Assembly: GCF_014621775.1 (NCBI RefSeq)
Contig: NZ_CP061204.1
Coordinates: 516,501 to 580,500 of the forward strand
DNA from: Stenotrophomonas sp. 169
Lineage (GTDB): Bacteria; Pseudomonadota; Gammaproteobacteria; Xanthomonadales; Xanthomonadaceae
Length of the DNA stretch: 64,000 nt
Direction: 5' to 3'
In this document: positions 13,189 through 52,995 of the stretch, piece after piece
Position numbering within the stretch: position 1 is the first letter of the stretch
Layout: each line of letters begins with the position of its first letter
Notes under the pieces: generated by a model
Database searches by the model: none
Seen by the model: only the letters and a program-made list of their open reading frames with translations
What the model was told of the DNA's origin: nothing
Position numbers and translations under genes: made by a program

Positions 13189-13263
13189 GTAGCGCCGAGC
13201 CGTGCTCGGCGGAATGTTCCCGCCAACGGCCCGCTGCGCTCGCCGACCATGGGTCGGCGCTAC
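13189..13263. repeat. 75-bp SMAG-type paired repeat
   Basis: A GTAGCGCCGAG-CCGTG-CTCGGCG palindrome, a spacer of about 25 bp, and a GCCGACC-ATG-GGTCGGCGCTAC palindrome in inverse orientation; exactly 75 bp from GTAG to CTAC. Confidence 0.85.
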
Positions 13264-13296
13264 TGCTTTTCTCTTTTTTCATACGCGGCTGGCGGC

Positions 13297-13460
13297 CACG
13301 GAACCTGTCAGGGGGCCGGGCGGTGGGGCGGGGCGGGGGCGTTGAGCGCCATGGATGGCGCGAAACGAGGCCCGCAGGAGCGGTTTTTGCCGTCCCCCGA
13401 CCCGCCCCACCGCCCGGACCCAACCCAGCGGCAGCTCCAACACCCAGCCGCGAGGGGGTC
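13297..13460 (+). repeat. Structured intergenic element, copy A
   Basis: Starts CACGGAACCTGTCAG. A GC-rich 5' arm (13312-13340, containing CCGGGCGGTGGGGCGGG) pairs with a 3' arm (13393-13421, containing CCCGCCCCACCGCCCGG). Between them is the perfect palindrome GCGCCATGGATGGCGC (13346-13361), then CGAAACGAGG and a T5 tract. Copies B and C elsewhere conserve the centre and keep the arms complementary while changing their sequence. Preceded by a pyrimidine tract after the SMAG pair. Confidence 0.75.
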
Positions 13461-30632: not shown

Positions 30633-30769
30633 GAGGGAACTCCGGCTGCCGCGCACGCCCGCGCGGACATAAAGGGAGCTGCAGCACGTGGGGCTGGGCG
30701 ATGCGCACCGCGAATGCTCGCGATGGCCGTCGCCGATGCCCACCGCATCGCAACCTGGTGCTTCCTGGC

Positions 30770-30940
30770 CGGTCTCCGGGCTTGCCGTCGGTGGGAACCC
30801 ACCGGGCGGACGCCTTCCCATGCTGGGCACAGTGGCGTGATGTCCGCTTGTGACGCGCTTACCGTTGCGGGGGCAGCGCCGGAGTGGCATCTCACGATGT
30901 GTCACCGGCTTCCCGTTTCAACCTGCCAGCTTGCGCCGCA
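30770..30940 (-). ncRNA. Cobalamin riboswitch upstream of btuB
   Basis: Read on the minus strand: CAGGTTGAAACGGGAAGCCG, then GCTGCCCCCGCAACGGTAAG, then GCCACTGT, GGGAAGGCG and the B12 box AGCCCGGAGACCGGCC (about 30776-30793). This is the canonical order of the AdoCbl aptamer. It sits about 140 bp before the btuB ATG. Known behaviour: cobalamin binding represses translation or transcription of btuB. Confidence 0.95.
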
Positions 30941-31041
30941 GGTCACCTTGAAGTGCGCGCAGTCTAAGCGATCACACGCGGCAATGCAGGGCGATGCGGC
31001 CGGTGCACTAGAATGGACTCTGTTTCGTTCCAGATCTGCCG

Positions 31042-46047: not shown

Positions 46048-46068
46048 ACCTGCAGAAGCAACTGCAGC

Positions 46069-46110
46069 GGCAACAGCAACAGCAACGGCAACGGCAACGG
46101 CAACGGCAAC
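46069..46110 (+). repeat. Hexanucleotide tandem repeat (seven units)
   Basis: Seven 6-bp units of GGCAAC or AGCAAC in a row, between the M14 gene and the repeat-rich gap. Not coding in any supported frame. Confidence 0.8.
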
Positions 46111-46127
46111 AGCTGCGGGGCTGCTTG

Positions 46128-46210
46128 GAGGTGGGGCGGGGTGGGTTGGCAGGGGACGGCAAGGGCCGCATCCATGCGGGCCTCGTTTCGTGCCATCCAT
46201 GGCACGGGTC
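46128..46210 (-). repeat. Structured intergenic element, partial copy D
   Basis: On the minus strand it shows the palindrome GTGCCATGGATGGCAC, then CGAAACGAGG and a GC-rich 3' arm, as in copies A-C. The central palindrome has changed from GCGCCAT/ATGGCGC to GTGCCAT/ATGGCAC on both sides, keeping pairing. A convincing 5' arm partner is missing or badly decayed. Confidence 0.55.
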
Positions 46211-46350
46211 CACGTCATCGCATTCGCGCTGCCGCTCCCACGCTTTGCTTCGCAAACCGCGGGCCCCGTCTCACCAGCACCCACACCCCGCCGCTTCGCG
46301 GCCGCCCCTGACTCAGGGGCTCCCTCCACCCGACGGATTATCGCCATCTG

Positions 46351-46424
46351 TAGCGCCGAGCCGTGCTCGGCGGAATGTCCCCGCCAACGGCCCGCTGCGC
46401 TCGCCGACCATGGGTCGGCGCTAC
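46351..46424. repeat. SMAG-type paired repeat, 74 bp
   Basis: GTAGCGCCGAGCCGTGCTCG to GGTCGGCGCTAC with one base fewer in the spacer than the 75-bp units. Followed by a pyrimidine tract and element copy B, the same order as at 13189-13421. Confidence 0.85.
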
Positions 46425-46458
46425 CGCTTTTTTCTTTTTTCTTACGCGGCTGGCGGCG

Positions 46459-46626
46459 CACGGAACCTGTCAGAGGGCTGGGCGGTGGGGCTGCGCGGGG
46501 GCGTTGAGCGCCATGGATGGCGCGAAACGAGGCACGCATGGACGCAGTTTTTGCCGGCCCCCGCACAGCCCCACCGCCCAGCCCCAAGCACGCAGCCTGC
46601 ACTTGCAGCCCACCGCGAGGGGCTCC
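46459..46626 (+). repeat. Structured intergenic element, copy B
   Basis: CACGGAACCTGTCAGAGGG, 5' arm 46474-46502 (contains CTGGGCGGTGGGGCTG), palindrome GCGCCATGGATGGCGC at 46508-46523, CGAAACGAGG, a T5 tract, and 3' arm 46557-46585 (contains CAGCCCCACCGCCCAG). The arms pair almost perfectly over about 29 bases. Confidence 0.75.
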
Positions 46627-52689: not shown

Positions 52690-52831
52690 CACGCCGGATG
52701 CGGGTGGGGCCGGGCGGGGAGGCTGTGCGGGGGCCGGCAGAAGCCGCATCCTGCGGGCCTCGTTTCGCGCCATCCATGGCGCTCAACGCCCCCGCCCAGC
52801 CTCCCCGCCCGGCCCTCCGACAGTTTCCGTG
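52690..52831 (-). repeat. Structured intergenic element, copy C
   Basis: Inverted relative to A and B. Arms at 52706-52735 and 52788-52817 are complementary (minus-strand 5' arm contains CCGGGCGGGGAGGCTGG). The central palindrome GCGCCAT-GG-ATGGCGC lies at 52767-52782, with CGAAACGAGG next to it and ACGGAAACTGTCGGAGGG at the 5' end (compare ACGGAACCTGTCAGAGGG in B). Confidence 0.75.
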
Positions 52832-52849
52832 CTTCCCGGACAAGGCCGC

Positions 52850-52872
52850 TAGCGCCGAGCCGTGCTCGGCGG
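52850..52872. repeat. Single SMAG-type palindrome
   Basis: TAGCGCCGAGCCGTGCTCGG with trailing CGG; left unit of the paired repeat only, 18 bp from element copy C. Confidence 0.7.
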
Positions 52873-52995
52873 CAGGGACGCCTCCGGTCATCCGCGGGAC
52901 CGGCCTACACTCGGGGATGCGGCGGCGCAGCTTTCCGTGGTTGCGGGGCTTTGATTACACTTGAAACTTGTTGTCCACCTCTGCCGGATATCCCC

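Follow-up and report, generated by a model that had tools for sequence, protein, structure and literature searches.

ERIC sequences, about 127 bp long, are inverted repeats scattered through intergenic regions, and TwoAYGGAY owes its name to two hairpins with AYGGAY loops. In CsrB, RsmX, RsmY and RsmZ, short stems end in GGA loops of the ANGGAX type, and each RNA has more than one such hairpin. In the portions of the literature available to us, the high-affinity CsrA/RsmE site is an ANGGAX hexaloop that sits immediately on top of a stem and has its N and X looped out; forms without N are bound more weakly (PMC4005645). The accessible text of a further survey lists TwoAYGGAY for the gamma-Proteobacteria (Weinberg 2010, PMC2864571), and excerpts of four papers present REPs as units of 20–40 nt that have a GTAG-type head and are associated with RAYT genes (PMC2613905, PMC3686654, PMC2817692, PMC3733652). 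RsmU (sRX061) of Xanthomonas campestris is described, in the available parts of its report, as an RsmA-binding RNA with GGA motifs that derives from a 3' UTR; it comes from a single locus, 25 bp after comEA, in two forms, one of 77 nt and one of 117 nt that includes a terminator (PMC7694677).

Here, we describe an element of about 125 nt that occurs in three full copies and one partial copy in a 64,000-nt stretch of DNA from Stenotrophomonas sp. 169 (the window; Table 1). The original prediction gave copies A, B and C a common 5' box, the central palindrome GCGCCATGGATGGCGC and CGAAACGAGG, and all three copies have these parts where it placed them. It also proposed that the enclosing arms differ in sequence from copy to copy yet pair within each copy, and folding of A, B and C bears this out: their plus-strand minimum free energies are -92.4, -92.0 and -99.7 kcal/mol, with z scores of -4.6, -6.2 and -7.4 and equally good folding in 0 of 200 shuffles. 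Copies A and B, which were folded both ways, are very stable on either strand. Partial copy D lies head-to-head with copy B, its own 5' arm replaced by other sequence, and has the reported double change (C to T on one side, G to A on the other) in its central palindrome. The predicted layout was right in its palindrome and arms and wrong in drawing a single hairpin around the palindrome, as the structure is a three-way junction. A GC-rich stem of about 24–28 bp (P1) ends in this junction, which bears two hairpins, P2 and P3. P2 comprises the central palindrome and, beyond a GA/GA internal loop, a CGTT/AACG helix that lengthens it. P3, absent from the original prediction, has compensatory changes of its own; it exists in two forms, GGC...GCC and GCGC...GCGC, which are exchanged as a whole.

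Table 1. Positions in the window of the element's copies and their parts
Feature	Position	Strand	Remarks
Copy A, full element	13297..13421	+	Model R2 match 13295-13427, 115.7 bits
5' box ACGGAACCTGTCAG of copy A	13298..13311	+	Conserved; outside the stems
P2 hairpin, copy A	13346..13361	+	AUGGAU loop, C-G closing pair
P3 hairpin, copy A	13369..13391	+	AGGA loop, without the N of ANGGAX; U-rich 3' bulge
Copy B, full element	46459..46585	+	Model R2 match 46457-46591, 134 bits
P2 hairpin, copy B	46508..46523	+	AUGGAU loop
P3 hairpin, copy B	46531..46555	+	AUGGAC loop
Copy D, partial: 3' half, P2 and P3	46128..46210	-	Model R1 match 46122-46256, 47 bits
Copy C, full element	52706..52831	-	Model R2 match 52700-52833, 120 bits
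P2 hairpin, copy C	52767..52782	-	AUGGAU loop
P3 hairpin, copy C	52736..52759	-	AGGAU loop, without the N of ANGGAX

SMAG-like REPs adjoin all three full copies as a separate unit (window positions 13190–13266, 46350–46430 and 52845–52875). In copies of type I, a T-rich tract and an apparent outer stem, CGCGGC...GCCGCG, unite REP and element as a composite. Copies of type II (for example, those at loci L030, L034 and L042) have short tandem-repeat tracts of the GTTGCT/GGCAAC type at their 3' side, and a similar tract flanks copy D (window positions 46050–46115).

The original prediction knew of no described family with this layout, and we likewise found no named match in Rfam or in the available literature on these repeats. 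At Rfam gathering scores, no family matches the element in the window, where the sole match is a cobalamin riboswitch (positions 30750–30965, minus strand, 105.5 bits). At E ≤ 10 across 14 loci, all 54 matches fall below the gathering cut-offs, and many of them are microRNA hairpins lying over the element. The CsrB, RsmX, RsmY and RsmZ models matched neither the window at gathering scores nor the 14 loci at E ≤ 10. In the portions at our disposal, publications on CsrA and repeats and on Stenotrophomonas and Xanthomonas repeats contain nothing that fits the element, and the four SMAG, REP and RAYT papers cited above do not describe it.

As in CsrB and the Rsm RNAs, more than one short stem of the element ends in a GGA loop of the ANGGAX type; unlike them, it is a high-copy dispersed repeat, and a long stem clamps its three-way junction. 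It has in common with RsmU its GGA motifs and a related bacterium as host; RsmU is an RsmA-binding RNA from a 3' UTR, and RsmA binding and transcription in 3' regions are predicted for the element. The two are not the same, as covariance model R2 finds nothing next to comEA in the four other Xanthomonas genomes searched: the nearest matches lie more than 1 kb away at two of the four comEA loci, and the other two have none. The likeness to TwoAYGGAY is taken from its name; many copies fit the AYGGAY loop, others have G or A at N, and TwoAYGGAY is not among the Rfam matches at E ≤ 10 in the 14 loci. The element resembles SMAG, REP, REPIN and BIME sequences in being high-copy and intergenic, in its inverted pairs and arrays and in its convergent bias. 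At about 125 nt and without a GTAG (GTRG) head, it is neither a REP nor a SMAG, for which that head and a palindrome of 20–40 nt are diagnostic. Repeated weak Rfam matches to Ysr224 (18–31 bits against a cut-off of 70) led us to test ERIC, which we also reject: in the one Escherichia coli copy used (L299), the central hairpin has no GGA loop and R2 finds no match. That locus itself gave a Vibrio AS5 match below the cut-off.

Covariation within the host genome and across genera supports the proposal that pairing is under selection. In the statistical test that the original prediction had called for, double changes occur in 21 of 42 base pairs among 47 copies from the host genome, with no shuffle of 500 as high on any measure, and in 36 of 42 pairs among 45 diverse copies (again 0 of 500 shuffles), where 96.3% of alignment cells are paired. 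The covariation score of the diverse set is 0.613, compared with 0.152 for shuffles and at most 0.094 for slid partners. Because this alignment was fitted to a covariance model, it favours structure; however, both sides vary in 23 of the 24 P1 pairs while 99.3% of cells remain paired, which well exceeds what such fitting would give. Rather than drifting independently, the arms stay paired genome-wide.

The mismatches in these arms also tell the two strands apart. Under pure DNA symmetry, G·T and A·C should be equally frequent because each is the other on the opposite strand. In 136 unique P1 arm pairs aligned without the covariance model (150 rows minus 14 that were duplicate, short or poorly aligned), we counted 227 G·T and 20 A·C; element by element, 89 have more G·T, 5 have more A·C and 42 are tied. 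Alignment by the model gives 34 versus 0 in the 45 copies and 227 versus 15 in the best 150 of 157 matches. This excess identifies the plus strand, in the orientation of the original prediction, as the strand whose folding is kept. As a control for mutation bias, we counted substitutions in four sets of flanks of the host genome's copies, and these raw counts, not adjusted for base composition, gave C>T 38, 32, 25 and 5 versus G>A 18, 17, 26 and 11; overall there is no comparable one-sidedness, and type I flanks lean towards C>T about two to one. The G·T excess is absent from P3, with 3 G·T versus 27 A·C in the 47 copies (16 of the 27 at the hexaloop ends, which need not pair), 1 versus 22 in the 45 copies and 2 versus 88 in the best 150 of 157 (86 of the 88 at the two hexaloop ends). 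For P2, the corresponding ratios are 0:2, 1:3 and 10:13. G·T is the better tolerated mismatch in single-stranded DNA too, and the strand test therefore cannot tell RNA and single-stranded DNA apart.

GGA is present in both loops of all 77 full copies in the host genome, with 17–22 nt between the two GGAs, and two sites at such spacing suit one CsrA dimer. The full C-ANGGAX-G form is found in P2 of 68 copies and P3 of 59 (both loops in 50, P2 only in 18, P3 only in 9), so that each of the 77 has it in at least one loop. The 27 copies without a full ANGGAX in one of the two loops include copies A and C, and the remaining loops hold GGA in a shortened or altered loop. Across genera, in the best 150 of 157 matches, GGA occurs in P2 of 146 copies and in P3 of all 150; 76 of these P3 loops match the pattern used to fetch them, which fixed GGA, and the 74 outside that pattern have GGA as well (74/74). 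The base preceding GGA in P2 can be any of the four and the base following it varies. The pair that closes the P2 and P3 loops is C-G in 45 of 45 rows of the diverse set, and most pairs below it vary; in one host-genome copy (GATGGATG), which lies outside that set, G replaces the closing C of P2. The model does not conceal copies whose P2 has no GGA, as these are still detected, with scores of up to 95 bits (L164). Judged by sequence, these loops have the features of a Csr/Rsm-binding site, ANGGAX directly on a stem with C-G closure, and the exceptions CAGGAG and CAGGATG fit the described lower-affinity form.

CsrA is encoded in the host genome. Among genomes at least 90% complete, it was found in 45 of 46 that bear the element and in 199 of 230 others, as tallied by hand from the element search and the CsrA search (one-sided Fisher test, 0.017, which ignores kinship). 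Four of 56 element-bearing genomes gave no CsrA hit: three are less than 90% complete, and one (G342) is 98% complete. This last genome has seven element matches; its missing CsrA hit reflects a gap in the assembly or else counts against the CsrA reading.

The host genome (4.16 Mb) contains 77 full copies and hence 154 loops. Covariance model R1, built from 47 aligned copies of this genome, found divergent relatives: its 125 matches comprise 63 full copies at E < 1e-24, 14 more divergent full copies and a remainder of antisense shadows and partial copies. Model R2 recovered all 77 plus one antisense shadow. An exact search of the genome for the palindrome gives 51 occurrences (reversed control, 0): 47 with both arms, three in D-like copies with a replaced 5' half and one without arms (L012), which we take as a chance match.

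The covariance model search of Stenotrophomonas genomes proposed with the original prediction returned matches, and one genome (G029) had none in three samples. More broadly, matches were found in 29 of 149 genomes (14 of 54 genera) of a family sample, in 56 of 321 genomes (49 of 242 genera) of a sample of the class Gammaproteobacteria and in 19 of 299 genomes of a phylum sample, all 19 within Gammaproteobacteria; with 10–22 candidates scored per genome, zero counts and copy numbers in these three samples are weak. Hosts among the matches listed include Stenotrophomonas, Xanthomonas, Luteimonas, Thermomonas, Arenimonas, Marinobacter, Alcanivorax, Haliea, Aquisalimonas, Nitrococcus, Microbulbifer and Halopseudomonas, and some are metagenome bins. 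The cross-genus set came from 77 of at least 80 loci (three short ones were left out), and the best 150 of its 157 matches were aligned. A scan for inverted repeats without the covariance model, run on loci mostly fetched for holding the element, returned 197 long-stem repeats, 156 of them with two GGA hairpins. BLAST found nothing for copy B in plasmids and E. coli, nor for one Xanthomonas copy in plasmids and phages. Despite the lack of an E. coli match for copy B, a contig labelled as a Klebsiella pneumoniae metagenome-assembled genome (L182) has two copies; this contig is possibly mis-binned.

Several other readings have to be weighed against this evidence. Long inverted repeats are corrected by template switching, and P1 arms that are more than 98% paired could owe their compensatory changes to such correction of quasi-palindromes, with no selection on structure. 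Compensatory changes alone do not exclude correction at the DNA level, but the strand asymmetry speaks against it: template switching gives no reason for so many G·T and so few A·C, nor for conserving two loops and a junction across genera, and we consider this origin very improbable. A second reading takes the long stem as a bidirectional transcription stop or a stabilizer of mRNA 3' ends, with loop sequence mattering little. Gene context agrees with such a role: of intergenic regions of at least 100 bp in 165 loci searched with the model, 54 of 150 with the element are convergent compared with 26 of 208 others (two-sided Fisher test, 2e-7), and 16 of 150 are divergent compared with 55 of 208 (2e-4). 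These counts rest on genes called by a home-made gene finder and cover 68 of the 77 host-genome copies and 173 others, with 31 elements left out for a missing flanking gene. Where the flanking genes are in tandem, the element's folded strand lies in the sense orientation 54 times and in the antisense orientation 56 times (26 versus 29 for singletons). The equal orientation and the very stable folding of copies A and B on both strands suit a stop or stabilizer, and the orientation counts also weigh most heavily against a simple 3'-UTR RNA, which should be biased. However, in the copies inspected by eye, no run of U directly follows the stem in the plus direction, which also speaks against an intrinsic terminator; one copy sits in the interval between trpC and trpD, about 20 bp from either gene (L105); and the fixed loops and strand asymmetry would be left unexplained. 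On balance, a role for the stem alone seems unlikely. At L105 (1479–3130), copies lie both between and beside these two genes, and the element looks to be tolerated inside an apparent trp operon.

A more serious competitor, which we regard as possible if somewhat improbable, is a non-autonomous mobile DNA hairpin akin to REPINs, in which a single strand folds and a transposase acting in trans contacts both GGA tips. Neighbours less than 700 bp apart are mostly head-to-head, in 14 of 16 cases in the host genome and in 37 of 51 elsewhere (12 of the 51 are tail-to-tail), and Xanthomonas has tandem arrays of two or three head-to-head pairs, spaced by about 300–410 bp from pair to pair (L178, L187, L134 and L126). 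The convergent enrichment, as described for REPs, and the lack of gene-strand bias point the same way. So does turnover at the site of copy C, where 30 Stenotrophomonas loci from 41 matched genomes, some of them incomplete, have 10 doublets, 7 singles and 13 without the element; at the site of copy A, 3 of 30 loci have it, the host's own included. The comparison of empty orthologous sites, which the original prediction had suggested for finding insertion boundaries, did not succeed, as neighbouring blocks change too: no clean insertion junction or target duplication, as expected of a MITE, was seen at the two sites. In G750, 94% identical in the neighbouring gene, site C has no hairpin and holds other repeat remnants. 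In one relative (L267, 1961–2720), the left element has a long insert in P3, and the linker holds a second REP pair. Also against mobility, none of nine listed gaps of 350–4000 bp between neighbouring copies contains a transposase; two have no genes and seven have ordinary ones, which we take from their translations to be aroA, trpC, trpD, those for ribosomal proteins L28 and L33, and others; on these gaps, we also rejected an autonomous version of the element with a gene of its own between neighbouring copies. We rejected a RAYT as the mobilizer in the host genome, where the element is at none of the three Y1 transposase loci (only 8–11 bit matches); two of these loci (L297 and L298) carry GTAG-type REPs, and the patterns used detected none at the third (L296). 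The searches of plasmids with two copies and of phages with one were empty, and a mobile hairpin leaves the coincidence with the CsrA consensus unexplained.

From the observed structure, conservation, folded strand, loop consensus and GGA spacing, we infer, with a probability of roughly 0.55, that this is a dispersed multi-copy RNA element whose two loops bind an RsmA/CsrA dimer. The original prediction had offered a mobile hairpin or a structured RNA; the strand asymmetry and CsrA-type loops favour RNA, and the turnover and head-to-head pairs indicate that copies come and go. The plus strand would be transcribed, usually by read-through in 3' regions, and fold into P1, P2 and P3, whose two hairpin tips would expose GGAs about 20 nt apart and could hold one RsmA/CsrA dimer. 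A head-to-head pair would offer one correctly oriented element to read-through from either side. Cleavage of the long P1 stem by RNase III could free the head as a small RNA. Together, the 77 copies with their 154 loops would act as a distributed RsmA decoy; alternatively, individual copies could serve as local RsmA-dependent 3' stabilizers, and the element may also spread as a repeat. A bolder and rather doubtful extension is that a self-spreading repeat carrying an RsmA/CsrA docking platform is the main RsmA decoy, so that dozens of dispersed elements and not one sRNA gene, by way of read-through, would set the level of free RsmA.

If dimer binding holds true, intergenic DNA would contain a large class of unrecorded binding sites for CsrA/RsmA, a much-studied global RNA regulator of Gammaproteobacteria, and for Xanthomonadaceae there would be a source of RsmA control that is open to testing. 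There would also be a host-level reason for the persistence of a strictly structured repeat at dozens of copies.
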